The position numbers were made by a program, and so were the translations under genes. This document shows positions 30,081 through 53,631 of a DNA stretch of 64,000 nucleotides, one piece after another (the stretch's first letter is position 1; each line of letters starts with the position of its first letter). The DNA is taken from NCBI GenBank assembly GCA_030144725.1, contig JASKMD010000010.1, forward strand, positions 1,312,666 through 1,376,665, written 5' to 3'. The DNA comes from Haematococcus lacustris (Eukaryota; Chlorophyta; Chlorophyceae; Chlamydomonadales; Haematococcaceae). Below the pieces are notes generated by a model that worked only from the letters and a program-made list of their open reading frames with translations, was not told where the DNA came from and did no database searches.

Positions 30081-30237
30081 CCCATCCCTAGCCAACCCCA
30101 GCTGACTCGCAGCCTCGTGGTGCTGTGCCTCCGCCCGAAGGAAGTCCTTGAGACAGTCCAGGAGGTCAGGGTTGTCCAAAGTGGGATCTCTCTTGGAGGA
30201 GTGCAGATGGCGCCACGGGTCCACCAGCCCCCACCAG

Positions 30238-30674
30238 CTACCGCAGCTGGTGCGCCCCCTGGCCCCGGCTGCCAGCCCTGGCATCCCCATGCTGCGAGCA
30301 CTGCGGGATGCCCACTCTATCCACTAGGGCCAGGATGCAGTTGAAGTCGCCACCCATGAGGAGGAGGCGGCGGTCGGCGTTTGGCGGCAGGCAAGCAAGG
30401 AGGCACTCGGAGTTGAACGCTGGCCGCTCTGCCTTCTGCGCCGGGGCGTACACGCACACTAGGGACACTGGCATGCCTGCGAGCTCCCCGTCCACCCGCA
30501 GCACTCGCCCCTGGGCCCCTCTGCCTGCAGCTGCACTTGGGTGCACCCCTTGAGGATGGTGGGGGACTTGACCAACACCACGCAGCCCTGGGAGCTGCCG
30601 GTGCCAGGGGTATAACATGACTGACGTCGCCACGCAGGCTTGGCCTTTGAGAGGGCTTCGGCCCACTGCCACAC
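30238..30674 (-). pseudogene. LINE endonuclease (EEP/APE-like) remnant, unit E
   Basis: The N-terminal strand (VDLNVQGLAQPHKLQALL) lies upstream at about 30800-30730 and is followed by a stop. The middle part is split over two frames: CYTPGTGSSQGCVVLVK, then VSLVCVYAPAQKAERPAF. The catalytic GGDFNC motif near 30352 is followed by LVDRVG, and LVDPWRHLHSSKRD sits in yet another frame near 30220. These are the motifs of apurinic-type LINE endonucleases. The three frame changes are shared by every unit, and the C-terminal SRID-type motif is missing. Confidence 0.75.
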
Positions 30675-32665: not shown

Positions 32666-32799
32666 CACTCGTAGGAATTAGCAGCCAGGCCCCTAGACCG
32701 ACTTTGGCCTTTTGGGCTGAAACTTTGCACATTGGTAGCTTGTAATGTAAGCAAGTCAAACCCCGAAAAATCAGGCCAAAAAAATCAAAGGTTGGGGCT
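32666..32799 (+). repeat. Left terminal inverted repeat of the giant element
   Basis: It starts CACTCGTAGGAATTAGCAGC and contains GACCGACTTTGGCC, GGGCTGAAACTTTGC, TGTAATGTAAGCAAGTCAA and CAGGCCAAAAAA. All of these are matched in inverse orientation at the right end. Confidence 0.9.
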
Positions 32800-32818
32800 C
32801 AGTGATCCGTGGCGTTTT

Positions 32819-34280
32819 GTTCAGTGTATTCAGTGCTAGGGTTCAGTGTGTTCAGTGCATGGTTCAGTGCATTCAGTGCATGGTTCAGTGGATTCAGTGC
32901 TAGGGTTCAGTGTGTTTAGTGCATGGTTCAGTGTTTTCAGTGTATGGTTCAGTGTTTCAGTGCATGGTTCAGTGTTTTCAGTGCATGGTTCAGTGTGTTC
33001 AGTGCTAGGGTTCAGTGTGTTCAGTGCATGGTTCAGTGTTTTCAGTGCATGGTTCAGTGTGTTCAGTGCATGGTTCAGTGTTTTCAGTGCATATTCAGTG
33101 TGTTCAGTGCTAGGGTTCAGTGTGTTCAGTGCTAGAGTTCAGTGCGTTCAGTGCATTGTTCAGTGTGTTCAGTGCATGGTTCAGTGCATTCAGTGCATGG
33201 TTCAGTGCATTCAGTGCTAGGGTTCAGTGTGTTCAGTGCATGGTTCAGTGTTTTCAGTGTATAGTTCAGTGTTTTCAGTGCATGGTTCAGTGTGTTCAGT
33301 GCATGGTTCAGTGTGTTCAGTGCATGGTTCAGTGCATCCAGTGCATGGTTCAGTGTGTTCAGTGCTTGGTTCAGTGCATTCAGTGCTAGGGTTCAGTGTG
33401 TTCAGTGCATGGTTCAGTGCATTCAGTGCATGGTTCAGTGTGTTCAGTGCATGGTTCAGTGCATCCAGTGCATGGTTCAGTGTGTTCAGTGCTTGGTTCA
33501 GTGCATTCAGTGCTAGGGTTCAGTGTGTTCAGTGCATGGTTCAGTGTTTTCAGTGCTAGGGTTCAGTGTGTTCAGTGCTTGATTCAGTGCATTCAGTGTT
33601 CGGGGTCAGTGTGTTCAGTGCAGGGTTCAGTGCATTCAGTGCTAGGGTACAGTGTGTTCAGTGCATGGTTCAGTGTGTTCAGTGCTAGTGTTCAGTGTGT
33701 TCAGTGCTTGATTCAGTGCATCCAGTGCTCGGGGTCAGTGTGTTCAGTGCAGGGTTCAGTGCATTCAGTGCTAGGGTTCAGTGTGTTCAGTGCAGGGTTC
33801 AGTGTGTTCAGTGCTAGGGTTCAGTGTGTTCAGTGCATGGTTCAGTGTGTTCAGTGCATTGGTTCAGTGCGTTCAGTGCTATGTTCAGTGTGTTCAGTGC
33901 TAAGGTTCAGTGCGTTCAGTGCTATGTTCAGTGTGTTCAGTGCTGATATTCAGTGTTTTCAGTGCATGGTTCAGTGTGTTCAGTGCATGGGTTCAGTGCA
34001 TTCAGTGCTGATATTCAGTGTTTTCAGTGCTGATGTTCAGTGTGTTGAGTGCATGGTTCAGTGCGTTCAGTGTGTGTGTTCAGTGTGTTCAGTGCCTTTA
34101 TTCAGTGCATTCAGTGCTAGGGTTCAGTGTGTTCAGTGCCATGTTCAGTGTGTTCAGTGCATGGTTCAGTGCGTTCAGTGCTATGTTCAGTGTGTTCAGT
34201 GCTGATATTCAGTGTTCTCATTGCTGATGTTCAGTGTGTTCAGTGCATGTGTTCAGTGTGTTCAGTGCTAGGGTTCAGTG
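32819..34280 (+). repeat. Left subterminal heptamer array (TTCAGTG)
   Basis: About 1.46 kb of TTCAGTG repeated roughly every 9-11 bases, mostly as GTTCAGTGTGTTCAGTGCAT-type pairs with a period of about 19-21 bp and spacers such as GCTAGG and GCATGG. Long frames across it (VQCVQC, FSVFSAW) are artefacts of the repeat. Arrays of short motifs next to TIRs are typical transposase-binding regions of CACTA-like elements. Confidence 0.9.
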
Positions 34281-34440
34281 CTTCTATTTAGCATGCTCTG
34301 GCCTATTGTCTAGAACATTCAGCACAATGGTCATAATGTCCATGCATACATCAACTGTCCATGCCTGGAAGTAACCTAGTGCGTATGCGGAAGTATAGGC
34401 TGCATTCATGCAACTATAATGCTCCAAGAGCTGGGGGCCT
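34281..34440 (-). other. 3' flank of the transposase gene
   Basis: A unique sequence between the left subterminal array and the transposase stop codon. It presumably holds the 3' UTR. No TGTAA signal in the sense direction was found here. Confidence 0.4.
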
Positions 34441-36896
34441 TCATGGCTGCTTGCTGAGGCTGTTGTAAGGCGTGAAGTACATGTCCCCTCGACCCTCCCC
34501 TGCTGGGAAGAATGCTACTAACAGAGTGTGCAGCGTCTCGCCATTCACAGCAAACCACTCTGAAGGACCTGCACCTGCCTCCTTCGTCTTGAACTTGGCA
34601 CGCTTGGGGATCCTGCATGCTTGGGGTTGCTCCTGCGGGGTGGCAGTAGCTGGTCTCTTTGCCACACGGTTTGAGCGGCGCTGTTGGCTGACTATCCCAC
34701 CATTGGGGGGGGGCGGAATAGAGGGTCCAGCAGCTGCTGCTGTTGCTTCATCTGCTGTTTCTGCTGCTGCCTCTGCTGCTGCTGCTGCCCGCCGCTTGGC
34801 CGCTGTGTCCTGTGGGGCTGCCCGCTTGCCTGCTGCACGCCCGACCCCTGTTGCTGCTGGTGCAGCAGCCGCTTGAGGCTCTGGGTCCAGGCCCATGCCA
34901 TGAAGCAAGTGGGGCATGCCACCCCCAGGGAAGAGGGGGTAGAGTCTCGTGATGGCCACACGCAGGAAGCGGTCTGGGATGAAGGGATGCTGGAGGCGCA
35001 CCCAGAATTGGATGTAGGCAGCATACTTGTTGATGGTCTGGGTACTGGCCTTGTTGAAATACTGGGCCAACACCCAGCTGTTGTTGCGTTTGTCTGCAAG
35101 CTTGTACGCCACACTGAACATCATCTGCTGCGTGCATTCTGCCCGAGTAAAGTACCATACCCGCCCTGGCTCAACAGGGGGCTGGGCTGGCTCACCAGAG
35201 GAGAACAGGTCTTTGACGTCCTGCTCACACCAGCCACTGGGCTCGCCTCCCAACCCAGCGTTCATCTCCTGCACCAGGGTGCAGATCGCCCGGCATACCC
35301 ACTCCTCACCACACGGAACTGGGCACGTCCTCTTGCCCACCCCAACCAGCTGGCAGTTTCCCCCCGGCAGCGGCTGAGGGTCCTTCACACTGGCAGTGAC
35401 CTTGCGCGGTGCACCCACCAGTTCACCCCCCACACCCTGCTGCGCTGTGCCGGGCTGCTCCCCCTGCTCCCCCCCCTCACCCTGCTGCGCTGGGCTGGGC
35501 TGCTCCCCCTGGTCACCCCCCACACCCTGCTGCGCTTGACTGGGCTGCTCCTCCTGCTCACCCTCCCCACCATGCTGCGCTCTGTATTTGTCAAGGAACC
35601 GCTGAGCCTGGCGGACCACCATCTCACGCTTGCATGCTGTCAGGGCTACGGTAGCACCTGATGCATGCTTGCCACAGCATCGCTTCATGTACTGCATGGC
35701 GCGCTCCAACCAAAACTCAGCGTCACGGAAGCTGCGGCCACGCTGCAGCTCTTGATACAGCAGCCTGCGCCCACAATGAAGCAATGAAATTGGTAGTGGC
35801 CATGGATGAAGTGCTGAACCGGCGCCTTTGGTTGTGGGAGAGTGTTTGGTCTCGGAGGTGGTGGTCTGCTGGAAGTAAACCCCAACGGATGACCCACCGG
35901 CAAACACACATGTGGAGATTGGGAGAGAACATGGAGGTCGGGACATGTAGGGTGTCCTCATGCTTATCCAGCATTTTGGCGTATTTCAGCAGGTCCTCAT
36001 AGCCCTCTCGGATGTTGGCCACCACAGTGTCAGGTTTGTCAGCACCTAGCAAACAAAACACAAGCACGTGTTCCAGTGTACCCCTGCTTATGACAGGTTG
36101 CACCTATCTATCCCTTGACTATTGCTAGAGATATTCACCTGGTGTCAGGTAGTGAAGCGCAGCTCTGACCAGGCATTTCCACATCTTAAAGTGCAGCTTG
36201 CGCTTGCGTGTGGGCTTGTTCAGGATGTCCAGGAACACGTACTGCCACTCGTGCTTGATGAAGTTCATGTAGTGGTCCATGATCCAGCCACTGCATTTCA
36301 TTCTCATATCACCAAGTGAATCACTATTCCAACAGCTTGGCTGTGTTTAGCTAGGTAAGGTGGCTTGTGCTATATCTGCCTCCATGGCTAAAGGAGGCTT
36401 GATCATGTACCTGCACTTGGGATGGTGGAAGGGGTCGCGGCCGTAGTCAGAAGGCACATGCATGTGCTTGAAGCGTTGCAGAATGACCTTGCGCTCCTTG
36501 CTCGACAAGGGGCTCTTCTTCTTGGTGGAGAGCAGCCACAGCAGGTGGTGGTGCACCAGCCCAAACAGCAGGCTGTGGGCTATTGGTACGACATGGACCC
36601 ACAGGGCCTCCACGTACTTGAGGAACCTCGTGATGATAGCGGGGCCATGGCACCCCACAGCGTTAGGAGTCAGCTTGCCCTTCTTCACCAGTCTGCCACG
36701 CTTTCTGAACTCTGGCTCCGTCAGCCGCATTGCTTCCTCCATCATAAGCATAAGGGCGGGCGGCACCTCGTCTGGCACTGGTCGTCTGACTTTGCGGGGG
36801 ATCACAGGTGCTGGGACAGGGTGGAAGTAGCCTCTGGGATGGACACCACCCTTGCTTGACTGTTTGGTATTTAGCCAGCACCACATGCAGTTCATA

Positions 36897-37241
36897 CACT
36901 CCTACAATTTAGTCCCTGCGTTTGTCCCTGCGTTCTACCGACCTTGTCCGATCGGGCTGAAAATTTGATAGATGGCAGTTTTCAGAAAATAAAACATATT
37001 TTCCAAGAAAAATATTTGAAAAAATCTAAAAGCTGTTGCGCTGTGGCCCGAAACCTATCCCTGCACTTATCCCTGCACCTACGCCCCAGGGCCACAGCGC
37101 AGCCGCCTTTGATTTTTTCAAAATATTTTATCTGAAAAATATGTTTTATTTTCTGCAAACTACCATCTATCAAAATTTCAGCCCGATCGGACAAGGTCGG
37201 TAGAACGCAGGGACAAACGCAGGGACTAATTTGTAGGAGTG
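36897..37241. mobile_element. Foldback MITE, copy 2, in a transposase exon
   Basis: 345 bp, starting CACTCCTACAATTTAGTCCC and ending in its inverse complement GTAGGAGTG. It is flanked by TA on both sides (36895-36896 and 37242-37243), a 2-bp target duplication. Removing it with one TA rejoins the exon in frame (GCC AAT ATG AAC TGC on the minus strand). It differs from copy 1 at only a few positions. Confidence 0.92.
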
Positions 37242-37294
37242 TATTGGCGCCCTGGCCCATGCCATTAGACCAAGCAGCCCTGCATGCAAAAGGT

Positions 37295-37827
37295 ATAGGG
37301 TTAGGACTAGGGCTAGGGCTAGGGCTAGGGCTAGGGCTAGGGCTAGGGCTAGGGCTAGGGCTAGGGCTAGGGCTAGGGGTGGAAGAGGGGATGGGATTGG
37401 GTTAGGGTTAGTGCTAGGGCTAGGGCTAGGGCTAGGGATATGGATAGGGATAGGGATAGGGATAGGGATAGGGCTAGGGCTAGGGCTAGGGCTAGGGCTA
37501 TGCTTAGACGTGGGGATGGGTTTGGGTTTGGGTTCGGGTTAGGGCTAGGGCTAGGGCTAGGGCTAGGGCTAGGGCTAGGGCTAGGGCTAGGGCTAGGGCT
37601 AGGGCTAGGGCTAGGGCTAGGGCTAGGGCTAGGGCTAGGGCTAGGGCTAGGGCTAGGGCTAGGGCTAGGGCTAGGGCTAGGGCTAGGGCTAGGGCTAGGG
37701 CTAGGGCTAGGGCTAGGGCTAGGGCTAGGGCTAGGGCTAGGGCTAGGGCTAGGGCTAGGGCTAGGGATAGGGATAGGGCTAGGGCTAGTCATGGACGTGG
37801 GGATGGGTTGGGTTAGGGTTAGGGCCC
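37295..37827 (-). repeat. Telomere-like hexamer array in a transposase intron
   Basis: About 530 bp of TAGGGC (CCCTAG on the gene strand) with some TAGGGA and TAGGGT units. It is interrupted by a distinctive segment, GGGGATGGGTTTGGGTTTGG (near 37513). It lies wholly inside the GC-AG intron between exons ending at 37852 and starting at 37279. The reciprocal array at 50201-50717 shares the interruption. Confidence 0.9.
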
Positions 37828-39284
37828 TTTTGGTTTCTGCTTTCTGCTTGCCTGGCCGGAGTGTCCGCCACCAAGCTGACCACAATAGGGTACAGCCGCG
37901 GTCCCACAGTGGGACGATCGCCTAAGCCTCCGTGATTGTGCAGGTAGATGTGCTGGGAGGCATCGTGTCCCAAGGCGCCTTTGAGAGCTTCATAGATGGG
38001 CTTCATGTAGCCTGTGACGTGCGATGCGGTTCCCGGGGTGAGGATGACGCCAAGAATTGCCCAGGTTTTGCTTTTGCCTCGCACATGGTCAGGTACATCC
38101 ACCACCTGAAGCTCATCATCATTCAAGGCTAAAGGGCTCATTAGTGTAAGGCCATCATGATGCAACACAAGGTCTGTCTGAGAAGAATGCAATACATGGT
38201 GTTATGTTGGTGGCATTGTGATGATGCATGAAGAATGTGTTGATGACTGCTCACCTGCATGCCCACCACTCCCACTGATGTGCCGTTGATGCTCACCCAG
38301 TCCAGACCCAAGCTGACCCTCACAGCGTATTGGTTATCATACACATCAGGCGTAACATGCTCCCGGATGTGGGCAGCAGCAGGGCCTACATGTGATACAA
38401 CACACACAAACTGAGAATCAAGACTTATTGATGATTGGCTCTGATGCGAATAACACCTTCCTTTCATAGTCTTACTTGCAGCAAACGAGCCTGGTTCTGG
38501 ATGCTCTGGGCGCTGGGCCAACCACTCCTTCATCTCCTCACTGTCGAAAAGGTGGTTCAGCGTGTCCTCAACGCCATGAATGAAGATGCAGTAGCGTGGC
38601 TCAAGGGATTCGCCCACTGCTAATACCAACACAACACATCACACCACGTCTATATAACTATTGTATGTTGTATGACATGTTGTGTAACGGAACACCATTA
38701 CGCTGTGTAATAAAACATGGGATATTGATAGGCTAGGAGGTGGTGGTGTTAAGCACAATGGCCTCAGGTGGCTGTGACCTCACCCTTCATAAAGCGGGGT
38801 GTCTGACATCTGGGGCACACTTCATCTTTGTGATCCTTCCATTTGTCCCTGTGATAAGGACACATAAGACGGTTGACACTTGTCAAGCGATATCACATTC
38901 ACCATCACATATGACCTACCGAGGAAGGTACTCGTAGGCATGGCCTCCACACCCCTTGTTGTTGCAGACGTGTACTCGTTGTCCCTCTTGCTCCTCTGCT
39001 CCAAGCACACCATATAACTGATGTGGGGTCGCAGGATGCCATGTCTTGCCTGGGCCCAAGCTGTTGTTCATGAGCTTCAACACCCTCATGACGTCCTGTT
39101 CTGACGGGCAGGCGGTGACGAGGTACTCACAGATCGATGCCAGGTGACCACTCAAAGACGTGTCTGGAGGACTGTGGAACAAGGGCGCGCCCTCTGCCAA
39201 TTGCTGCTGGATGGTGGACACCTTGCTCTTGCGACGATGGACCACACCGCCACCTAAGGCGGCTGCCCTTACAGCCGCCCCTCC

Positions 39285-39420
39285 CACGCCCCCTCCTCCT
39301 CCCCCACCACCACCGCCACCTCCTCCACCTCCACCGCCGCCTCCGCCCCCCCCCCCCATCACCTCCTCCGCCACCTCCCCCTCCACCTCCCCCGCCACCC
39401 CCGCCTCCCCTCCCGCCGTC
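39285..39420 (-). repeat. GGN trinucleotide run encoding poly-Gly in the transposase
   Basis: CCACCACC/CCTCC repeats on the plus strand encode about 23 consecutive Gly on the minus strand, upstream of the zinc ribbon. The run is open in two minus-strand frames. The acceptor at 39633 selects the frame that continues into the zinc ribbon. Confidence 0.8.
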
Positions 39421-40245
39421 AACGTCCTCGCCCGCTCCCCCAGCGCTCTCACTGTAATCCCCATCACCGGCTCCCCTGAGAACCTCATCGCCTCCCTCAC
39501 CACCATGGCCCCCACCCCCAACGCCTTGACCCGATCCTTCCCCCCTCCTTTGGGTGCTGTGGCGTTCTCCCTCCTCATCTGCCCCACCCACAGCCACACC
39601 ACGTAGCCTAACATCCCGACCTTTCCCTCCGCCTGCACCCCTCACTCCCACATACTCATCAACCCCTTCCCTGCTGCAGCTGCCCAGAGACACCTGAGGA
39701 ACATCAACACTCATGCAATTTAGACACACATACACACAAACATGATTGATGTCACAACTCTGTGCACGCTGTGAGTTCACTCCATACCTTTGTCCTCTTG
39801 GGGACTGACTGATGTGGTGTTGAGCAACCTCTTTTGGGCATGTCAGAGGATGCTGCTGCCTGTATCACACATGTGCACAGCATAACAATGTGTTTCCTTC
39901 ACCAGTACCAATTTAGCAAGCTTGCACACATGTGTCACCTTGAGGGGTGGTACTTGCAATGGTGTTGACGGCCCAGGCATGTTTTTTGGTTCAGTACCAG
40001 CCACACTCTTGTGCAGCTTGTCTCCGTAATATGCCTGCATTCAAGGATACAATAGTGTCATGCCGACTTGCAAGATGGTGTACATTTACAAGTGTCCCCC
40101 TCACATCGACCCATTTCACAAACTCGTACATGTGCTGATTATACGATTGACCCGGTTGCCGAACCTGCGTACATTGAGACATGTTGTCGAGAGCTCCCAG
40201 GCAAGGGCCCATCCCCATAGCACTGTCCAGCATGCCGTCCAGCAT

Positions 40246-40573
40246 ACCGGCACTGGCAACAGCGGAGGCGGGGGCGATCGCTTGCACGCTTCCCCTCTGC
40301 CGTCTGATGCCGTCTTCGCCGTCTGATGCTTGTCATCGGGCAGGGCCGTCATCGCACTAGTACAAACCCAAGCGACGTCGATGTATCAATCAGCAACCGG
40401 ACATCGCTTGTATCGCCGTCCCATCCTCCTCCTTCGCGACACACTGTTGATGCTGCTGCTTACCGACTCCTACCTAGCCTCCTCAATATCCCCTCAAGTC
40501 CTGTGGGGCTTCAATCATCTCACATTTTTGCTGAACGGACAATTTGCTGAACGGACAACACGGACGCTGCAAC
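40246..40573. promoter_or_regulatory. Divergent promoter region, transposase / 606-aa gene
   Basis: 328 bp lie between the two start codons, which point away from each other, so both promoters and 5' UTRs should lie here. The interval contains an inexact direct duplication around GCTGAACGGACAA (40530-40558) just before the plus-strand start. No clear TATA box was found. Confidence 0.4.
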
Positions 40574-43291
40574 ATGTCTCTAGATGTTGTTGTGCGTGAT
40601 TTGCATAACCAGGAAATAACTCGTTTCGCAGCAAACAAATTCCTTGATGCAAAGTCTCTAAAGAATGCACTTGAGGAGCACAAACTGTACAAGGTCGAAA
40701 TCAACGTCGATGGCATCGTCCGCCTCTTACAAAAGTTTGCTGATGTTGACTACATCCGGTTAGCTCGAGTACTCTGGCGCAACCGCTACGACAAGGCCTG
40801 GGAGGCTTCCGGCGCACAAAACAATTGGGGCATGTTCTCCACAGCGGGCGAGGTTGTGGAGGCCGTCATCTACTCCCATGCCCATGATGAGGTACAGTAT
40901 GTGGTCCTGTAGTAACTGCTGACTCATGTTTAGACACTGTTGTGCCCGTATACACACAGGCACCATCTCAGACACCACCTGCCAGCCTGGAATTGCTTCC
41001 ACCCCTGCAGCAAAGTGGAGACAAGAAGCAGGCCAAGGTATGTTGCCGTCATGCAACCCACTTGTCCATGCACACCCGAGCTGCTGATAGCCACTGTAAA
41101 GTACATGTGCACGTTGACATGACCAGGGCTTGATACGCAAGCGAGTTGCCAGCCCCTCACCCTCCAGTTCAGAAGATGAGGGGGAAGAGGAGGAGGAGGG
41201 GGAGGATGAGGAGGAGGGGGAGGAAGATGAGGACCACATCGAGGAGGAGGGGGCGGAGGACAACCATCTTCTCCCATCACTGGTAGGACTCACCATGCTA
41301 TTAACTAGGCTGATGTTTGCCACTGTCATGGGTCCAATCTTCCTCAAAAGTCTGCTTTGTTGTGCGTGTGCATGGATGCAGTTGCTATCAGAAGTTGCAG
41401 GTCATCCAGCTGCCACCCCAAGCAGGCCCAACAAACAGGTGCGCCTATCGGTTGCATGGACCACTCCATTAAGACAATGTGACATGTTTCTCAAAGTGGC
41501 TGCCCGTATCCTCACAGGCCAAGCGCACTCTTGACAGCGGTGCCAAGAGCAAAGGCAGGACCAAGAAAGAGGCTCTGGTCAAGCCCAAGCCAAGGCCAAA
41601 GCCCAAGGCTAAGAGTCAGCCAGCTAGGTCTCATAACCCTTTTGGTGAAGAGAACGTGGATGTGGGTGCATGCAACAGATTCCTTGTCATGACCCACGCA
41701 AGTACTATCTGCACACCGTCACCTACTTTGCAGGTATATGACACAGCGCACAAGGCCGCTTATTCGGCTGCCAGCATGTTCGCCTTTCGATCCGTCAAGC
41801 CTGTGAGTGCTGATGTTGTAGACAATGTGCCTATACTGTGTTGCATCTGACAACAGGATGAGCTTATTGCATGCAGCTCTTTCCCATTGGCAAGGAGCCT
41901 CATGGGAAGTACTGCGCCTGGAAGACGAAGGATCCCAATGCCAAGTGGGAAGCTGCAGAGATCACGGCAGTGGGGGCTGTGGCCTTGGCCATCCAGGCTA
42001 AACATGGTGGCATCCTGCCCAAGTGTGTGACGTATGGGGGCTTGGAGGCCGTCTTATGCCGGTGAGTGTCCATCTCAGTGCTAGGTAGGGATGCTATGCA
42101 TTCACTTGTGCTATGTACCAAAACCCTCATGTTTTGTCCTGAATTTTGCAGTGTCGTTCTTACTGCTCGCACCACTCACAAAACCTACATCAAAAAGAAC
42201 ACAGGCAAGGAGTGCGGCCCAAAATATGCTGAAGAGGCCGGAATCTACGAGCAATACGCCAAACTCAGGAAAGAACATGGCACCCTCCACGTTCCTCCTG
42301 GATGGAAAGATGAGCATGCTCGTGGTTTGGCTTTGAAGAATCTGACCGGTGAGCAGGCTGGTCAAGGAGGAGTGGGCACACGTGGGAGATCACATCCAAT
42401 GCAGTGACTTAACCTATTGTGCAACGTGACATGCAGGGGGAACGCCCGTGAAGCGCAGCCCTGCAGCCAAGACACGTGACCAGCCCAGCAATGCGCCAGG
42501 CACCCAGCCATCTGTGACCACCTGCATTGAGCATTTGTTGAGCGCCCAAGCAGCTGAAGTGGCGTGGAAGCATGGTGTATCGGTGAGCGTGGGCTACAAT
42601 TGGCTAAACATGGAGCACCACGTCATGTACACACCTATTATGAGCTCAAATAGTACATCAAACATCCTATATTATTTGAGGTAAAGGCGTCAATATCATG
42701 TATCCTATCGTGTGAGATGTTGTTTGCCTTACAGGTGTCCACCGTCAGCAATGCCATTCCTAGGGTATTGGCAGCGAAGCTCCCCAAGCTTGAGGTGTGT
42801 GACCTGGTCACCTTGTTCTACGGCCCATCCCTGACCATCGTGCTTATAATGGTCATAATACCCCCAATTCATTGTTGTAGGCCTTCATTGCCACGTTCAT
42901 CTCTGAGGCGGTGACCTCATTGCATGAGATCGTGGAGAGGCAGACAATCGTGGGCGTGGGGCTTGCTCCACAGCCTGCCAACCAGCAGGCCATCCAGTGT
43001 GCCCCCCAGCATGCCCACCAGCCGGCAGATGAGGGGGTGCCAAGCGCCATGGGTGGATCCCAGCAGCTGCTACCAGCGGAGCCGCCGGCGTCCGGGACGG
43101 AGAAGAAGATGGAGGGGAAGGAGATGGACAAAGAAGATAAAGATGAGGGGGAGGACGAGGTTGGGGAGGGGGAGGACGAGGTTGGGGAAGGGGAGGCTGG
43201 GGACGAGGATCCTTTTGCAGCGATCAACGAAGCTGTGCAAGGCACCCAGGCCCATGGCATGATTCACCCGGCCTCGTCCCCAGAAATCTGA
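40574..43291 (+). CDS. Unknown 606-aa protein of the giant transposon, 11 exons
   Basis: Predicted exons: 40574-40891, 40960-41037, 41127-41282, 41382-41438, 41518-41661, 41734-41802, 41877-42061, 42152-42348, 42437-42582, 42735-42794 and 42881-43291. All introns are GT-AG and all phases agree, so the gene looks intact. The N-terminal about 106 residues (MSLDVVVRDLHNQEITRF...) look folded but are not recognised. They are followed by an acidic Glu/Asp run (exon 3), a Lys/Pro basic stretch (KPKPRPKPKAK, exon 5), a W- and K-rich central part (GKYCAWKTKDPNAKWEAAEI), and a Glu/Asp-rich tail. The charge pattern and the place opposite the transposase suggest a DNA-binding accessory factor like TnpA of CACTA elements. 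That is inference only; no known domain was identified. Confidence 0.75.
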
Positions 43292-43562
43292 TCCAATGTG
43301 GCGTGTGTGAGACCAGCAGAGACATGGGCCTTGCATGACCTGCAGATCTTACATGGCTTGCATGTGACATGTGCATCCAAGTTCGCAGCACATGTATAGA
43401 ACAGGGTTAGGGTCTCAACATACCTATGAACTTATGAATGGTTGACACTGAAACTCATTACCTAATGATGCCAATGATGGTGACGTTGAGGGACTATGTT
43501 CACCCTGAGTAACGTCCATCCCAATGCAAAGCACACCACATCACAAGAAGGGCCCCTCCAGG
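43292..43562. other. Convergent 3' ends, no gene seen
   Basis: 271 bp between the stop codons of two convergent genes. TGTAA on the minus strand (43349-43353) is a plausible poly(A) signal for the F-box-like gene. No TGTAA was seen on the plus strand. Confidence 0.5.
43349..43353 (-). terminator. Poly(A) signal TGTAA, F-box-like gene
   Basis: TGTAA on the minus strand, about 210 bp after the stop codon; the algal poly(A) signal type. Confidence 0.4.
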
Positions 43563-44687
43563 TCACCAGAACCGTTGTCCCACCTGCAGCCCCGGGGCCA
43601 TCCCTGACAAGACCTGCTCACACCGGCTGGAAAGCGGACCTGAGAGCCTTATGAACTGGACAGCTGCACACCCCTGCAATAGTGGTGCCACAGACAGCGC
43701 CACCTGCTCATCCCTCAACCTGCCATTAGCATTGCGCACCCCAAGCTCCACCTGGACCTTCTTATAGCACCCTACCAGAGGCAATAGGGCTGCTATTGAC
43801 GCCTCTCCTGCTCCTTCCAGGCTGGTGAAGGACAGCTGCAGCTGCCCAATGTGCAGCTTCTCAAACCACCCATCCCTGACCGCTTCAATCCCAGTAGCCA
43901 ATTCCGCCTGATCCCGCTCTGGGAGGATGGCACAGAGGTCAGAGATATGCAGCTCTGTGATGGACTGGGGGAGCTTCCAGACATCTTTCACTAGCACCTC
44001 TGTGACGTTGACCACCTTGAGGTTGCTGGGTTGTTCTCGTAGGGAGTGGGGCAAGGGACCCAACTTGAAGGCGTGCAAGGTAGTCAGGAACAAAGCATAA
44101 CCATCCCAAGCAATGCCTCCCTCATACGTCATGCAGTGGCGGCCTCCATTCCGAATGTCCAGGTGCTTGATGTGCTTCACAACCAGGCTGTCGCTCAGGA
44201 AATTCACCAGCTCTGCTGAGTAGCAGACAAAACCGCTGAAACGGAGCGTCTCACAAAAGGGGAAGTTGGGCAGCAGCCTGTCCGCCAACCATGCCCCCAC
44301 CGGCAAATGCTCATAGCTCGCCGCCGGCTGCCTGTTGACGTATCGGAACTCCACGCTTCTGATTGCCTCACAGTAGCCCAGAATCGCTATCACGCCCTCC
44401 ACCATGCACCGATTCTTGTATGCACTGCGTTGCTTGTCTTGGGTCAGCCTAAGCGCCATAGGCAGGGTACGCCGACGCAATGCGGTCTGGATGCGAGTGG
44501 AGAGGTGGGCGTTGATGGCTTTGGTGTTGATGTTCAGCGTGAGGGATTCGCACGAGGCGAGGCACGCCTCGTGGCACTTCCTGCTGACCAGGCTGAATTT
44601 ACGACCCTGACGGTACCGGACGAGGTAACCAGCGATTGAAGCTAACGCATTGTCGGGGAGGCTGAGAAGGCGTGACTCGTGAGCCAT
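43563..44687 (-). CDS. F-box-like protein with leucine-rich C-terminal region, 374 aa
   Basis: A single-exon gene. The start is the first ATG (44685-44687), chosen because upstream in-frame codons are only TTG-type. Residues 6-50 (LLSLPDNALASIAGYLVRYR, then FSLVSRKCHEACL) fit an F-box: LPD near the start, a hydrophobic helix, then LVSRKCH. The remainder has irregular leucine-rich segments (IKHLDIRNGG, LKVVNVTEVLV, ITELHISDLC), like F-box/LRR proteins. F-box proteins recruit substrates to SCF ubiquitin ligases. On a transposon this could be captured host cargo that acts on transposase or host-factor stability. The F-box call is from pattern only. Confidence 0.65.
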   Translation of the reverse strand: MAHESRLLSLPDNALASIAGYLVRYRQGRKFSLVSRKCHEACLASCESLTLNINTKAINAHLSTRIQTALRRRTLPMALRLTQDKQRSAYKNRCMVEGVIAILGYCEAIRSVEFRYVNRQPAASYEHLPVGAWLADRLLPNFPFCETLRFSGFVCYSAELVNFLSDSLVVKHIKHLDIRNGGRHCMTYEGGIAWDGYALFLTTLHAFKLGPLPHSLREQPSNLKVVNVTEVLVKDVWKLPQSITELHISDLCAILPERDQAELATGIEAVRDGWFEKLHIGQLQLSFTSLEGAGEASIAALLPLVGCYKKVQVELGVRNANGRLRDEQVALSVAPLLQGCAAVQFIRLSGPLSSRCEQVLSGMAPGLQVGQRFW

Positions 44688-44971
44688 TGTAGTTTTCTGT
44701 GGCGGTACGGCAGTCCTGGCGCCTACTCGTGCGCTTGCACCATGCACTTGCACACACAAAACATATGAAGCATAAGGGATGAGGGTTCCCGCATCCGTTG
44801 TATACAGTTATAATCCCGGCTCTTGTAGTGTAGTGGACCACTACAGGTGGAGGATACAGTATTCGTGTTTTGTATTAGACTTGCATGGTGGTTCCACAGT
44901 TTCGAACTTCAGGCCTGCTACTATCACCATCGAGTAGCGCTCACCATCGAACATAAACGGCATCGCTGCAA
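44688..44971. promoter_or_regulatory. Divergent promoter region, F-box-like / Ulp1-dioxygenase genes
   Basis: 284 bp between outward-facing start codons. It includes TATACAGTTATAATCC (44799-44816) and an AT-richer composition than the surrounding genes. The exact start sites are unknown. Confidence 0.4.
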
Positions 44972-47900
44972 ATGTCTCAATCGAAGGCACCATCATTTCC
45001 GGCAAAGTTCACCACCGGGGATATGACCGGAATCAGTGCGTCAGGCGCTACGGTCCCGTTAGCGTCGGTGGCGGAGACAATGGTGAAGAGAATAATTGAC
45101 ATGAAGGTGAAAGAAGTTCCATTAGGTTGCATCAATGTTGGACTAAGGAGCACTGAGACCCACTACCTGCCTCTTGCAATGCAGAATCCAGCACAGGACC
45201 AGGAGAGGATCAAATACATAGTGGCTCTCATGGCTGGCTGCATGGACCTAGCTAACAGCAACAACCCGCCCAGCAAGGAAATGATGGCTAAGGAGGTGTT
45301 AAGGTGTGGCGTACATGGCAGAGTACAGCATACAAGGGGCTGCAGTATCCACAACCATGCATGAGACTTTTACACAGGCAAGTTTTAAAGGCACGAGCAA
45401 CCTGGACCCAGCTGACAGACGAGGGCAAGAAGGAATACTCCAAGGGATATGTCGCGGCCACCAAACACTATCCAGGCCTGTCTGCCGTGGGAGTGTATGG
45501 GGCAGGCGTCCCTGAGGGCATGGAGTGCTTGATGCAGCTGTATGACATTTACTCAAACTCCAGTGGGTGATAGCATCAGGGGGTGTAAGTCACCTAATCA
45601 CACAGCAACCAAGCCACTCAGCCACCCATCTACCGCATGTTGTGGTGATTGCAGAGAAGCCCATTCAGAGCACACCCGAGCTGTTGGCCACAGTGAGGGC
45701 TGTCACAGCTGTGTCATGCAGCTTGGTGACTGGAAACACACCAAAGAGAAAGACACAACCTGCGACACAGGTATTCATTACCTGTCCATGCAGGTGTACC
45801 AGATGCATGCACCAACAACATGTAATGATATGATGTAGTTGTGCAAATGCAGACAACCAAGCGCCCAAGGAACTCAGCATCCCCCGCAACACAGACATCA
45901 ACCCCAGTGGTGTGTGTGTCTGGCACGTTACAAGTGTCACATGTGTGATGCGGTCAGAATGAAGCGTAACCCTGTTCTAACGCAGGTCGTTGAGGGTGTC
46001 CAATACACTCCACAGTCAAGAGACTGTGTCGCAGCGATCCTGAATGGACAGGAGGACAAGGTGAAGCACACATACAGAGCTTATAGCAATGCAAGTTGTG
46101 ATAGAACAATTGATCAACTACCCTGACCGGTATTCTACATGTGTGCAGTTCAGAGCGACAATTGAGCAGAAGGACTTGGATGACATGGGCAGAGATGGGT
46201 TGGTGTCATGCGGAGTATTGGATGTGTGCTGCGCCGCCATGAAGGTGACATGCACAGCATCCTGATGCATGCATGCAAATGTCTCATTAGCACTGTAGTG
46301 AAGGACGAATTAGGTTGTTTGTGCGCTTACAGATCGAAGGGGGACTGGACCCAGCACTGGAGTTTGTCACCATCCTCCGTACCCAAGCCTTTGATAAACT
46401 GACGCGCACCTGGGAGTCATCAACTGCCCCACCCATGACACAGGAGGATTGGGTGGCGTACAGCACGTATTGCAGCACATATGACAGATTGGCTGAGCGC
46501 AAGGTGATCTTGGCGCCTATGTTTGTGACGAATCACTTCTTCCTGTTTGCCTTCTTCCCAGACACCATGCAGGTGGTGTACTTCAACTCCATGCTTAAGG
46601 GTTCACCGGTACGTGACCCTCACCTAAGCTGTCATACACAGCATCCACCTCACCGTATGAAGGAAGGATTGCAAACAAGATACAACCCTTGTTTAAATGC
46701 AGGACAAACAGCAAGTGGCCTTGATCACGGAGTTGGCAGCTAGGTGCATCAAGGCTGGCCCATGGAGGTTTGAGGTGGGCATCGTGGAGCAGCAGTCGGA
46801 CGGTATCAACTGCGCACACTATGTCCTGGCCATGGTGTACGCTTTTGTCAACCAGCTGGACATGTAAGGGAGGAGATGGACACATTAGGCACAGGTTATG
46901 AAGATCAGGCAAATGCATGGCACAATTGAACCCACATGTGTTGTGAGTCACGCAGGGGCTATGCCAACAAGGTTGACCTGTCTCGTGTGAACATCACAAA
47001 ACAGCGCCAAGACGTGACGGCGAGCATCAATGCTGCAATGGCGGTCATTGGGTCAGAGGCGGCAATGTTCCCAACAGCACCGGTGGCCTCCCCTCCACAG
47101 TACAAGGACGTGCTGCGAGGTACGCAGCATGCTATGGTGTTGTTTCATTCATGCAAGTTGTATCTCCCCAAGACATGTCACCTTCGTGTACTGAGCACCT
47201 TGCATGGTTGACCTTGCATGATTTTAGACCGCAACCCGTACACAGGGTCTCCAGCTGCTGCCTCAACGACCCAACAACAGCCCTCAGCCTCCTCCCCTGC
47301 CAGGGCATCGCCACGTACACCCACCCCTGCCCATTCCTCGCAGCATGCCCCAGCCCCTACCACCGCATGCTCCCAGCCTCCTGCAACCGCCCTGCCCCTG
47401 GCCAATACCTCAGCCTGCACCCCTGGCCCTAACTCGGCGCCTGCCCCTGCCCTTACCCTTGCCCCCACAAGCCTCCCAGCGACACCAGCCCCTACCCCGG
47501 CACCAGCACCAGCTCTTGTCCTGGAGGCATGCCCATCTCCGCCACTTGCTCCCAGCAGGCAGCCAGCAACACCAGCCCAAGACCTGAACCCTGCAACAGT
47601 TCCCGCCCCTGACACTTCCCTTGCCACTACCACTGGAGCTGTGTCACCCATGGGCAGCGGCCGGATGATTGGTGCTAAGCACAGTGGCAGTGGAGGTAGG
47701 ACATGGGTGGTGCTAGAAGCAGCAACAAATTGCTTGTTGTTATGTAGGCCATGGACGTTGCAAGTTGAACATGCGGGCGTGTGTGGCAGTAGCATGATGC
47801 CTTGTTCCAATAATTCATGAGACGTTAGCCATTATCTGCATTTGACCACAGGTCCTCCTGCACCAAGACGGCCCAGAAAGGAAATACGCCATGCGAATGG

Positions 47901-50900
47901 TACACATGTGAGTACCTAGCCATTGGAAGCTCATTTGTTACTCAATACTCTTGGCAGAGGAATGTTTTTATGCTATTGCAGAAAATCGCAAGGGAATACT
48001 GCCCTGATGACAAGTTCCATGACCCCATTACCCAGAATCCTGTGTGGCTGTCATGTGGAACAATGGATCTAGCCCTGGAACTGATTCATGTGGGTAAATG
48101 TGTGGCCTTTGGCATGACGGGTTAGTTGAGCACTATAATTAGTACACATTGATGGCCTGGATTCATGTATAACATGCCTAGTGCACTGCCTTTCCAGGCG
48201 ACTTGCTATGATCCACAGCTCAAGAACTTTGCGTTGTTCAAGTTCGAGATGGGTTTGGCAATAAGGAACAGCCAGGCAGAGGTGGCCTGCAAGGCTAACC
48301 AATTTTGCTTGACAGGTGGCCGCCGCTTGGTTGGCCAAGGAGCGTCAGGAGTGCAGGGTGCGTCGATTGTCCTAATCCCTTTCAACTTCTCAGGGAATCA
48401 CTGGACGCTGGCAGCTGCTTATCCCAGCACACAGAAGGTCGTGTACTGGGACCCAATGGGGGTAAGAACATCAGATGTGCTATTGCAACACATATATAAT
48501 ACCCACTCACAGATGCTAATCGCCGCATACCTGTGCATGCATGTAGGATGGTAAACTCAAGGCTGAGCAGTGGGATAAGGTGCACTCCTTTCTGCAGCAG
48601 TATGTCAGCGCAGGAGATTGGAGTTGGGAGTGCGGCACTTGCCCCCGCCAGCACGATGGCTGGAGCTGCGGCGACCGCATGCTCCTGCACATAGACTACA
48701 TAACTGAGCACATGAAGAGGCATGTACTTGTTTGAAATTGTGTGCTGCTGCAATCATGTGGATGGCTTGTGCAGGTATGCATGTCAGCATGTATGCATGG
48801 ACATATGTGGTGCATGTGCATGTGAATGTGCAGTGAGATGCATGTGACCGTGCCTCAACATCACTTGGCATGATGTGAGGTACATAGTAAGTGGTATCTT
48901 GATTAATGCATGATGTGCAGAGACGCGTCCATGGTCACCAACATCAACTACGATGACAAATCGTGGCTGGCAAGGCGTATGTGCTTGAAGGACGCGGTTC
49001 AGGGTCTGGCGGCAATGAGTGACTCCGATGACAAGTACATCTGGCCTGGTCTGGTAAGAGCAACATCATCAGCTAGAGGCACATGCAACTAAAAATCACA
49101 AGGCAGCAACAACCATGTTGTAAGATGTGATGCTCGCAGGTCAAGGTTGACCTGCGTTGGAAAACAGCTGCGGCCTCAAGGGTGTTGGAAGGCGCCTACA
49201 AAAGAAAGCACGGAGGAAAACCTGTGGTGGGTGGCCCGGCAACTAACTATGTATAGAACATGAGGCAACAACACATCACGGCATGACCATGCATGGGGTA
49301 ACCCTTGTCACAATGCACATTGAACAATTGAGACTAACAGAGTATGTCCGCATGCTTGATCACAGGCTAAGAAGGCTGAGCCCCAACAGGATGCGTCAGC
49401 GAAAGTGTACGTAGATCTAACAGTGAGTATGAGTGACGAGTTAGATAACCATGACCACAAGCAGCAGCTCACCATCAACTGATGGTTAACATTGATAATT
49501 TATTTGCAGGTAGCCAGCCAAGAGGTTGGCATGCAGGAGCAGATTCAAACGTTGGCCAAGGACATTGCTGTGAGTTATCAGATGGAAATATATACTTGCA
49601 TCTCAATATTGTAAGTAATATATAATTGATGAGGATGTTACATCATTGTTTGAATTACAGGACATCAAGAATCAGGGAACCGTGAACACAGCTAAACTGG
49701 ACCTGGTGTGTGACAGACTGCAGCAACTGTGGGACATAGTGCGAGGCAAAGAGGGGGAGAAGAAGGAGGAGAGCCAGGTTCCTAAGGTTGGTAAGCAAGC
49801 ATGAAAACCATCCCACAATAACATTTATGGGCAAAGGTATTGATGGTACTGTTTGGCCTTCATGGTGCTTCAGTGTATGCCATTGGTGCAGGTTGACGAC
49901 CCAACACTAAAGAAGGGCCCTGACACCGAGTGGCAGCTGCCTAAGTTTCAGGATAAAGCTGTTCATGTGTGGCAACCTGGGCAGGAGAAGGAGTTCAAGG
50001 CCACTGTCCTCAGCGATGGCTATGCTGTGATGAAAGTGGGGGAGGAGTTCATGCCTAGCCGCATGGAGCTGTGGGCCTTGTTGGAGCTGACCATGAGCTA
50101 TGCAGACATCATCTTCAAGGAGGGCGCCATCAACCGCGAGGGGGAGGTACGGACCCAGAAGCGCAAGACCAGCAATGTGAGTATAGGTAGCGTCCATGAC
50201 TAGCCCTAGCCCTAGCCCTAGCCCTAGCCCTATCCCTAGCCCTAGCCCTAGCCCTAGCCCTAGCCCTAGCCCTAGCCCTAGCCCTAGCCCTAGCCCTAGC
50301 CCTAGCCCTAGCCCTAGCCCTAGCCCTAGCCCTAGCCCTAGCCCTAGCCCTAGCCCTAGCCCTAGCCCTAACCCTAACCCAAACCCAAACCCATCCCCAC
50401 GTCTAAGCATAGCCCTAGCCCTAGCCCTAGCCCTAGCCCTAGCCCTAGCCCTAGCCCTAGCCCTAGCCCTAGCCCTAGCCCTAGCCCTAGACCTAGCCCT
50501 AGCCCTATCCCTAGCCCTAGCCCTAGCCCTAGCCCTAGCCCTATCCCTATCCCTAGCCCTATCCCTAGCCCTATCCCTAGCCCTATCCCTAGCCCTATCC
50601 CTAGCCCTAGCCCTAGCCCTAGCCCTAGCCCTAGCCCTAGCCCTAGCCCTAGCCCTAGCCCTAGCCCTAGCCCTAGCCATAATCCTAGCCATAACCCTAA
50701 CCCTAACCCTAACCCAACAGAACTTCTATATGTTGACATGCTTCCAGGTGGTGGTCACGGAGTATGGAACTGGGCAACGCAAGCAGCTGCTGTTCACTAG
50801 CCCACAGCAGGATGGCAGCCTTGCTGACGAGGTGTCCATGGCAGGGGTGATGGGTGTGAGGCAGCTGGAGCTGTTCAAGAGCAAGCCGGCACACATCAAG

Positions 50901-52100
50901 GCACGCCACCTGGCTGCCAAGTTGTGGGCAAAGGCCTGCTTGCAGCGACTCCAGGCCAGGGCCAGGCAGCTAGTCTCCACTCCTCTCCGGGGTGGCACGA
51001 TCCTATGCAATGACCCATACACACAGAGAATCAAGGTCCCAAAGCAGCCGGGGCTGACAGAGGTACCAGCAGAGTGTTTGGTGCCGCCTCAGTGCTTGCA
51101 TGTGGATGTGCGGCCAGAGCTCACGGATGCGGAGGAGGCAGCCCTTGCAGCCCAGCAAGACAACCATGCTGCAGCCCAGGCGCCCCCCCCGCCCACCATG
51201 TCAGCCCCCCCCCCCTCAAGCCCACAGAACCAGCCCCACACACCTGTCCCAACAGCTGCTGCCACACCTCACCCCCAAGCCCCCTCCTCAGCAGCATGCA
51301 GCAGCCCATCAGCACCAGGTGCTGGACACAGCCAGCTGCCCCCCCCCCAGCTGTCCACCAATGACCGGGATGGCATGGTCCTCATCATGGCCATGCAGTT
51401 GGTGAGCATACTGCTCATCCCCAAGAGTCACGAGTGGGTGCAGCTGGTTGAGCGGATCTGGAATGGGCCTGGGAAGAATGGCGAGATAGATGCAGCGCTT
51501 GACCTTGCGCTGAAGGCCATGCCTCCCCAGGAGGTGGTGAGGGTGACCTTGCAGCCAGGTCAGGTGTTGGGGATGCGTGGGTATACGATCCACGCTGGGG
51601 ATGTGGGCAGAGAGGGGACAGGCTCTGTGCGTGTGCACTTCTATGCCTCCCGTGGCTTTGTGTCCAACACCACCACCTTCGTGCATGAGTTTGGCACCAG
51701 GTTTGACAGCCTGTGCCAGCCCACTACTGAGCCCAAGCGAGACAGCAACCCCAAGGTGTCAGCCTGGCTTAAGCCAGAAGCAGGTGGCGAGTATGTGCCA
51801 AGGCGCCCCTACCATCCCCCCACTAGGCTGGAGACAGATGAACTCTGGGAGGTTGGGTGGGAGTCACGCTTGCCTAACAGCAATGACGTGGTGTTGCTGG
51901 AAAAGAAATGGGAGACAGCACTAATGGCAGAGGCTGCTTCTCAAGCTGCTGAAGCTGCAATGGCAAGGGCTGAACAGTTGCAAGCTAAGTCAGAGGAAGC
52001 TGAGTCCACGAAGGGGGCAAAGGCAGCAGCAAGGGCAGCAAAGGCTGCATCATCGAAAGCAGCAGCAGCAACAGCAGCAGAAGCAGCGGCAGCAGCAGCT

Positions 52101-52138
<38 letters not shown>

Positions 52139-52166
52139 GGCTATGCTGGAGAAGGGGAAGGCATAG
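44972..52166 (+). CDS. Ulp1-Ulp1-2OG/Fe(II) dioxygenase-like fusion protein, 21 exons, about 1,565 aa
   Basis: Exons: 44972-45303, 45378-45562, 45655-45770, 45853-45909, 45986-46060, 46149-46244, 46333-46608, 46703-46863, 46956-47119, 47228-47695, 47852-47907, 47982-48089, 48198-48461, 48547-48719 (GC donor), 48921-49053, 49140-49226, 49366-49422, 49510-49569, 49661-49786, 49892-50176 and 50748-52166. Every junction keeps phase. Domains: N-terminal region with KRK/KRPR basic patches; Ulp1 module 1 (H355, N372, Q410, C416); Pro/Ala/Thr linker; Ulp1 module 2 (H766, D783, Q821, C827); helical spacer; dioxygenase-like domain (H1211, D1213, H1375, R1388); Ala/Glu coiled tail. Ulp1 proteases cleave SUMO or related modifiers; the oxygenase class hydroxylates proteins or nucleic acids. 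Splitting into two genes is possible, but no stop or poly(A) signal was found between them. Confidence 0.7.
46501..46842 (+). other. Ulp1 (C48-type) protease module 1, probably degenerate
   Basis: The first module reads [20 protein letters not shown] and, across an intron, [12 protein letters not shown]. His (46534-46536) and Cys (46811-46813) are present. The usual catalytic Asp is Asn (46585-46587), and the Gly after the Cys is Ala, so activity is doubtful. Confidence 0.65.
48198..48719 (+). other. Ulp1 (C48-type) protease module 2, complete catalytic set
   Basis: It reads [20 protein letters not shown], then after an intron [13 protein letters not shown]. The His (48399-48401), Asp (48450-48452), Gln (48649-48651) and Cys (48667-48669) follow the H-D-Q-C order of Ulp1/SENP proteases. 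The exon layout mirrors module 1. Confidence 0.8.
50201..50717 (+). repeat. Telomere-like hexamer array in an intron of the Ulp1/dioxygenase gene
   Basis: About 515 bp of CCCTAG with CCCTAT and CCCTAA variants. It contains the same interruption as the left array (CCAAACCCAAACCCATCCCC near 50378). It starts after GTCCATGACTAGCCC, as the left array does on its gene strand, and ends CCCTAACCCAACAG. It lies within the intron 50177-50747. Confidence 0.9.
51060..51690 (+). other. 2-oxoglutarate/Fe(II) dioxygenase-like double-stranded beta-helix
   Basis: [11 protein letters not shown] gives an HxD pair (His 51099-51101). After a Pro/Gln-rich insertion come [20 protein letters not shown] and [19 protein letters not shown] (His 51591-51593), then [10 protein letters not shown] (Arg 51630-51632). 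The order HxD...RGxxxHAG...VRxHxY matches oxygenase-like domains common in algae. Substrate unknown. The low-complexity insertion between the two halves is unusual. Confidence 0.55.
52030..52140 (+). repeat. GCA trinucleotide run encoding poly-Ala
   Basis: A GCA microsatellite-like run encodes an Ala-rich helix near the C-terminus of the Ulp1/dioxygenase protein. Confidence 0.8.
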
Positions 52167-52280
52167 GTGATGTATGCATGATCATGCAATATGTCTGACA
52201 AGCGTGTGAAGTGGGTTAGGGGAGTTGAAGATAGAGCAAAATGATGCAATGCTGAACAACATGGCAATGACTTGGTGTTA

Positions 52281-52285
52281 TGTAA
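52281..52285 (+). terminator. Poly(A) signal TGTAA, Ulp1/dioxygenase gene
   Basis: TGTAA about 115 bp downstream of the stop codon at 52166, before the right subterminal array. Confidence 0.55.
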
Positions 52286-52373
52286 TGTTCTTGACATGAA
52301 TTCATGAACACATGACACTGATATTTTGTGTTTGATGAGCACAGAATACCTAAACAGGAAGCACAGGACACTT

Positions 52374-53487
52374 ACACTGAACACTCTGAATCTAGCACTG
52401 AACGCACTGAACTCTAGCACTGAACGCACTGAACATTGAACTGAACACACTGAACATTGCACTGAACGCACTGAACACCAACAATGAACACACTGAACCA
52501 TGCACTGAACACACTGAACCTTAGCACTGAATGCACTGAACCAAACACTGAATGCACTGAACAATGCACTGAACGCCCTGAACTGTGCACTGAACACACT
52601 GAACCATGCACTGAGCACACTGAACCATGCACTGAACGCACTGAAAACATGCACTGAACGCACTGAACACTGCACTAAACGCACTGAACCTAGCACCGAA
52701 CGCACTGAACATTGCACTGAACGCACTGAACATAGCACTGAACGCACTGAAACTTGGACTGCACGCACTGAACCTTGGACTAAACGCACTGAATATTGCA
52801 CTGAACGCACTGAAAATTGGACTGAACGCACTGAACCTCGGACTGAACGCACTGAACATTGCACTGAACGCACTGAACATTGAACTGAACGCACTGAACC
52901 TAGCACTGAACGCACTGAACCTAGCACTGAACGCACTGAACCTAGCACTGAACGCACTGAACCTAGCACTGAACGCACTGAATTGTGCACTGAACGCACT
53001 GAACATTGCACTGAACGCACTGAACCTAGCACTGAACGCACTGAACTTAGCACTGAACGCACTGAACCTAGCACTGAACGCACTGAACCTAGCACTGAAC
53101 GCACTGAACCTAGCACTGAACGCACTGAACCTAGCACTGAACGCACTGAATTGTGCACTGAACGCACTGAACATTGCACTGAACGCACTGAACCTAGCAC
53201 TGAAAGCACTGAACAATGCACTGAACGCACTGAATAGTGCACTGAACGCACTGAACATTGCACTGAACGCACTGAATAGTGCACTGAACGCACTGAACCT
53301 TGGACTGAACGCACTGAATAGTGCACTGAACGCACTGAAAATTGCACTGAACGCACTGAAACTTGGACTGAACGCACTGAACCTTGGACTGAACGCACTG
53401 AATATTGCACTGAACGCACTGAAAATTGGACTGAACGCACTGAACCTCGGACTGAACGCACTGAACATTGCACTGAACGCACTGAAT
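52374..53487 (-). repeat. Right subterminal heptamer array (CACTGAA)
   Basis: About 1.1 kb of CACTGAAC repeated every 9-10 bases (GCACTGAACGCACTGAACCTA). It is the same heptamer as the left array, in inverse orientation. It is more regular than the left array, with runs of near-identical 19-bp units (for example 52905-53000 and 53030-53150). Confidence 0.9.
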
Positions 53488-53496
53488 CATACCCCC

Positions 53497-53631
53497 CAGC
53501 CCCAGCCTTTGACTTTTTTGGCCTGTTTTATTTGGGGTTGACTTGCTTACATTACAAACTGCAAGTGGGCAAAGTTTCAGCCCAAACGGCCAAAGTCGGT
53601 CCAGGGGCCTGGCTGCTAATTCCTACGAGTG
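53497..53631 (-). repeat. Right terminal inverted repeat of the giant element
   Basis: The reverse complement of this segment matches the left TIR: identical for the first 29 bases, then with scattered substitutions. It ends TTCCTACGAGTG, followed by the CT duplicate. Confidence 0.9.

Follow-up and report, generated by a model that had tools for sequence, protein, structure and literature searches.

A 20,966-bp insertion of a multicopy DNA transposon family with terminal inverted repeats and 2-bp target site duplications in Haematococcus lacustris

Introduction

CACTA-type (CMCT) DNA transposons are reported to share a signature of C(2)C and H(3-4)H between the second D and the last E of the transposase, mostly together with CA..TG ends and target site duplications (TSDs) of 2-5 bp (Kojima, PMC12730594). 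EnSpm/CACTA elements have CAC..GTG ends, structured subterminal repeats, deletion derivatives, and a spliced transposase of the D-D-E type in which C(2)C and a histidine ligand precede the last E, and may carry an optional ULP cargo such as the CACTA-ULPs known in grapevine and rice (PMC2528002). The Haematococcus lacustris element described here is alike in these respects, by motif in the case of the transposase, and differs in its 2-bp TSD compared to the 3 bp reported for fungal EnSpm (PMC12730594) and soybean Tgmt* (PMC2613891), and in its CACTCG ends, H(3)C motif, absence of a Pfam transposase match, and far more numerous subterminal sites. Tgmt*, a 20.5-kb soybean CACTA element, resembles it in size, CACT ends, subterminal repeats, and one large spliced gene with transposase domains, whereas its TIR measures 13 bp and no such cargo is mentioned in the examined parts of its description (PMC2613891). 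EnSpm families of Chondrus crispus (16-20 kb, 4-5 ORFs) also come from an alga and combine similar size with several ORFs, but the host is a red alga and the likeness is one of description, not of sequence (cited in PMC6431247). A preliminary description of the present locus had held that few elements so large have clean boundaries; this was overstated, and size was dropped as a novelty because CACTA elements of 16-20.5 kb with defined ends are published (PMC2613891, PMC6431247).

The fungal Plavaka and ESTA elements share the CMCT signature and 2-bp TSDs (PlavakaA 2, PlavakaB 2-3, ESTA TA), with Plavaka termini differing as TGT..ACA and CATCA..TGATG (PMC12730594). Some carry a TET/JBP dioxygenase, a transposon cargo known from fungi (PMC12730594), whereas the present element encodes a protein recognized as 2OG-dioxygenase-like. 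Jozin CACTA elements of Chenopodium likewise have short subterminal motifs at both ends, numbering 19-23 sites per element (83-100% motif matches) versus 217 exact sites here, counts obtained by different methods (PMC8978399). The H. lacustris genome paper reported 47.3% repeats with tandem, complex patterns, and the examined parts of its main text name no DNA transposon family (PMC7617258). The family was not the subject of any title listed in the literature surveyed, which took in few subscription papers and no Repbase, and is apparently undescribed.

Boundaries and insertion site

The window, i.e., the whole stretch of 64,000 nucleotides that was analyzed, corresponds to contig C2:1312666-1376665 of a 308-Mb, 597-contig assembly. 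A sequence check placed the element at positions 32666-53631 (20,966 bp), delimited by the following features:

32664..32665, no strand: target site duplication CT, left copy
32666..32799, plus strand: left TIR of about 134 bp, starting CACTCGTAGG
53498..53631, minus strand: right TIR, ending CCTACGAGTG
53632..53633, no strand: target site duplication CT, right copy

Within the window, CACTCGTAGG had a single occurrence, at 32666, as did its reverse complement, which ended at 53631. The TIRs were longer than the preliminary description stated, with the first 29 bases perfect and 91 of the first 101 identical. The base-exact ends proposed there from the phase of the host array were confirmed, as the distance between its anchors (55398 - 30943 = 24,455) less the element and a 2-bp duplication (24,455 - 20,966 - 2) is exactly 3,487. 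Removal of the element and one CT restored an uninterrupted 3,487-bp unit, supporting the claimed CT duplication, and the flanks joined in this way (3,997 bp) gave gapless matches at three places in the array, with seven mismatches each against 55122-59118 and 58609-62605 and 21 against 27180-31176. The earlier reading of the locus as a DNA transposon insertion agreed with the base-exact ends, the 2-bp target duplication, and the recurrence of the same ends in other copies.

The split unit differed from its three in-register neighbours at 17, 6, and 7 of 3,487 bases, while a fourth stretch from 23969 was not comparable ungapped (1,456 ungapped mismatches; 98.2% identity with gaps from 24441 on). 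The array is likely older than the insertion; the preliminary description had presented this order as shown, which fits the data and is not strictly proven because later unequal exchange within the array is possible. It had also called the host repeat a LINE, to which RVT_1 (E = 0.0014 and 0.022) and zf-RVT (E = 0.0007) matches, all below the Pfam cut-offs, point weakly. An inverted piece of the array unit lay at the array edge (window 4734-5369).

A family with 2-bp target duplications

The stretch 32666-53631 is one insertion of a multicopy TIR DNA transposon family of H. lacustris with 2-bp target duplications, and the family includes shorter, internally deleted, and miniature members. A search for other copies with the same ends, suggested in the preliminary description, found them, and as far as tested these did not have different ends. 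The left 101 bp gave at least 41 matches in the assembly, the present element among them, a lower bound from the scoring of 40 of 313 candidates. Twenty stretches (L021-L040) around a subset of these matches yielded 15 pairs of facing family ends, leaving out unpaired ends (e.g., L029, L031, L034, L035, L039, and single outer ends in L022 and L038). Identical 2-bp flanks were present in ten pairs (CT, AT, CC, TT, AG, TC, TG, TG, TA, and GG), for a binomial tail at 1/16 of 2e-9 that treats dinucleotides as equally likely, and absent from the remaining five (L023/L024, L027, L030, L032, and L038). The 3-bp TSD of EnSpm/CACTA in the narrow sense was rejected, with identical 3-bp flanks in none of the 15 pairs. 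TSD-bearing pairs spanned from 235 bp (L028) to 20,966 bp, and base-exact empty sites were recovered for three insertions: that in the host array, a 345-bp element described below, and a 335-bp member (TSD AG, one of the ten) lying within a transposase exon of the C22 copy, for which the window copy is the empty site.

Longer relatives kept different portions of the element, namely 45839-52010 with the transposase missing (L022), 34273-39738 plus 49657-52390 in pieces (L039), and parts of the transposase region plus 48615-52390 (L025). These are deletion derivatives or rearranged copies, and the derivatives retained ends and arrays. None of the 20 loci showed the stretch 39738-45838; a nested element within it was considered and rejected, as the 11-bp inverted pairs look like chance. 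In L022 (174-201), a family member with TSD CC was inserted inside the terminal repeat of another member.

Left ends were predicted for three other transposase copies, and the TIR was found in one (C2:947066). On C147 (L062, 300201-301400), a TTCAGTG array stood directly beside transposase-like sequence with no TIR within five substitutions, the layout of a rearranged copy. A close transposase on C182 (L064, 4077951-4079150) was accompanied by a subterminal array rich in TTCAGGG rather than TTCAGTG. The C127 copy was rejected as a full-length second copy, since its right array runs into other sequence with no right TIR within the next 1.5 kb, and it reads as a rearranged copy or a mis-join. 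By eye, the sequence entered by that array (L061, C127:265080-266579) resembled the transposase gene in its 5' part.

Subterminal arrays

Inward of each TIR lay a dense array of a 7-base motif in a single orientation:

32819..34280, plus strand: left subterminal array with a 21-22-bp period (128 TTCAGTG, 0 CACTGAA)
52371..53486, minus strand: right subterminal array (89 CACTGAA, 0 TTCAGTG)

The arrays thus total 217 exact sites, compared to three in the 18 kb between them. The commonest spacings were 9 and 12 or 13, which fits a 21-bp period (Tandem Repeats Finder) of about two helical turns. The TTCAGTG sites are candidate transposase binding sites because the TNPA protein of CACTA elements is described as binding subterminal repeats (PMC2613891).

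The transposase gene

On the minus strand, the left part of the element reads as a spliced gene, with splice sites set by eye and conservation:

34444..39641, minus strand: transposase gene region, spliced, coding pieces by eye and conservation
38919-39218, 38785-38847, 38477-38617, 38255-38383, and 37854-38105, minus strand: first five coding pieces
36413-36895 (interrupted exon), 36140-36289, 35900-36043, and 35554-35763, minus strand: later coding pieces
34921-35385, minus strand: C-terminal part

The joined exons encoded D197 (GLDWV), D293 (VADTPAR), C312/C315, H566/C570, and E591 (FWLER), and the same D, D, C(2)C, H(3)C, E pattern was found in relatives, so that by motif the product would be a transposase of the D-D-E type in which C(2)C and H(3)C are present. 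TNP2 proteins presumably resemble it in the stretch with VADTPAR and C(2)C. Against the protein collection, the 652-aa exon join gave six matches among 7,279 candidates from 5.8 billion and a profile of six sequences gave nine, all from H. lacustris, in searches that depend on shared 5-residue words. A 440-aa part gave at least 141 exon-level matches in the assembly (96 of 1111 candidates scored), which, the window's own aside, comprised close copies at 86-96% identity and larger groups near 60 and 47%. A distant relative with 28-46% identity in pieces (L035, 4899-9871) hints at further lineages in the genome. Between copies, transposase dN/dS was 0.08-0.40, in a list where several loci represent one and the same copy, no value exists for L047 and L057 (the window itself), some alignments are gapped, and the relative L055 has a stop.

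Neither the transposase nor its six relatives matched a Pfam transposase family (Transposase_21 or similar) at E up to 1. The PDB profile search returned 12 sequences at E 0.034-2.4, of which 11 were TAF1 bromodomains and one Intersectin, and these were taken as chance. Viral relatives were rejected following an IMG/VR scan with 19 pattern matches and none confirmed.

Affiliation of the transposase

Motifs, termini, and TSD together place the family as a likely divergent CACTA-type (CMCT) lineage. The window copy and other copies had CA..TG (CAC..GTG) TIRs, the 2-bp TSD (10 of 15 pairs) fell within the 2-5-bp range, and three acidic residues with C(2)C between the second D and E were recognizable by motif. 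The H(3-4)H motif was replaced by H(3)C in the window copy and its relatives. This substitution would also suit a transposase from another superfamily (e.g., KDZ or a separate lineage) with short TSDs and CAC..GTG ends arrived at by convergence, as would the lack of a sequence match to known transposase families in the Pfam, protein, and PDB searches and the report of the KDZ elements Zisupton and Kyakuja in Chlamydomonas and relatives (PMC8226300). We regard such convergence as unlikely, given that the order D, D, C(2)C, H(3)C, E fits CMCT along with the ends and the 2-bp TSD, compared to the 8-bp TSDs of Zisupton (PMC12730594).

A nested miniature element and the autonomy of the window copy

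The transposase exon of the window copy was interrupted just ahead of the C(2)C motif by a second, smaller insertion:

36897..37241, no strand: nested 345-bp miniature element, TIR CACTCCTAC, TSD TA, with the C127 copy (L039) as empty site

This element reads as a member of a family related to the host element. The start of the exon piece 36413-36895 lies beyond it, and the C(2)C-bearing exon (E6) was uninterrupted in all eight distinct copies spanned by a match, from 14 loci of which L034 matched at the exon end only and five had no match. Because its transposase exon is split, the window copy has probably lost its own transposase, and as a non-autonomous element would need that of another copy. 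Inserted elements are sometimes removed as introns, and the remaining listed coding pieces are open frames in the window, so the copy might still make transposase with the 345-bp insert spliced out or avoided. We consider this decidedly unlikely, since the insert lies within an exon, immediately ahead of C(2)C, and lengthens this exon by 347 bp, a number not divisible by three. Another end of the CACTCCTAC family (GTAGGAGTG) was present near the window start (875-883).

Cargo genes and other internal features

The element further contained putative cargo genes, a long open frame, and two telomere-like arrays:

47982..48717, plus strand: spliced Ulp1-family cysteine protease domain (Pfam Peptidase_C48, E = 4.4e-8, above the cut-off)
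46333..46864, plus strand: second segment, resembling Ulp1 (H and Q...C motif recognized by eye; unmatched in Pfam)
50748..51914, plus strand: 2OG-Fe(II) dioxygenase-like protein (HxD and IHAGD...SVRVHF by eye; PhyH E = 0.011, below the cut-off)
43566..44807, minus strand: 414-codon frame between stops (F-box-like by eye; unsupported by Pfam; not found in L021-L040)
37296..37788, minus strand: telomere-like (TAGGGC)n array, also in the C127 copy
50200..50715, plus strand: another telomere-like hexamer array, opposite in orientation to the first

In the dioxygenase-like protein, HxD, the second H, and R were recognized by eye; in Pfam, PhyH was the one profile reported, below the cut-off and for the C-terminal piece, with nothing for the N-terminal piece and no TET/JBP match. 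A PDB search gave nothing, and the protein search found two H. lacustris proteins among 8000 candidates scored, with query words from low-complexity stretches. One annotated protein (P0008) joined a dioxygenase-like segment to an integrase-core (PF00665) protein and may be a chimaeric gene model. Two ORFs had been read as HMG-box and F-box, readings that were dropped as unsupported by Pfam.

Between copies, dN/dS was 0.23 and 0.31 for Ulp1 and 0.10-0.29 for the dioxygenase-like protein, for which one fragment with 37 synonymous sites reached 0.55. Values were therefore below 1 for both, as for the transposase, which argues that Ulp1 and the dioxygenase-like protein were useful to past elements.

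The transposase gene would carry the array at 37296-37788 within a GC-AG intron. At the matching place in the C127 copy (L039, 4600-5380) there was also a hexamer array, and the arrays consist of TAGGGC and variants. The telomere motif of H. lacustris is reported as AACCCT (PMC7617258).

Proposed mechanism

The explanation that we favor, and hold with good though incomplete confidence, is a family insertion moved by a CMCT-type transposase, equipped with accessory cargo and, in its transposase exon, split by the 345-bp element. The element would move by cut-and-paste, with the CMCT-type D-D-E transposase from the minus strand at 34.4-39.6 kb binding the dense TTCAGTG arrays, pairing both ends, cutting at CAC...GTG, and joining the element to the target with a 2-bp stagger. 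The Ulp1-like protease and the dioxygenase-like protein may serve accessory functions, kept because they help the element, e.g., against SUMO- or methylation-based silencing. A single unit of a young 3,487-bp array would have received the window copy, whose transposase exon was split by a miniature of a related family. Although near-identical tandem arrays are places where mis-joins occur and the C127 copy appears rearranged at its right end, it is scarcely credible that misassembly of two array fragments around a separate copy produced the element with its clean boundaries, as the flanks are in register with a matching TSD, nine other members have matching TSDs of varied sequence, and a mis-join is not expected to yield both the CT duplication and the exact 3,487-bp phase.

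A bolder extension of the favored explanation is speculative and, in our view, rather unlikely. The family would represent a deep, so far alga-only CMCT lineage with a changed zinc site (C2-H(3)C), in which end complexes form on more than 200 binding sites and the dioxygenase and SUMO-type protease make up a counter-silencing kit acquired independently of the fungal TET/JBP transposons.

Significance

For Haematococcus, a commercial alga with a highly repetitive genome, the element provides a transposon family that has base-exact ends and includes members that are clearly non-autonomous, and the 2-bp TSD rule together with three base-exact empty sites makes the chemistry of this family testable. 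The cargo under purifying selection bears on the question of whether anti-silencing enzymes are transposon-borne in hosts other than fungi. The large subterminal arrays, whose motif varies between copies (TTCAGTG here and TTCAGGG in L064), offer a case of transposase-site co-evolution.
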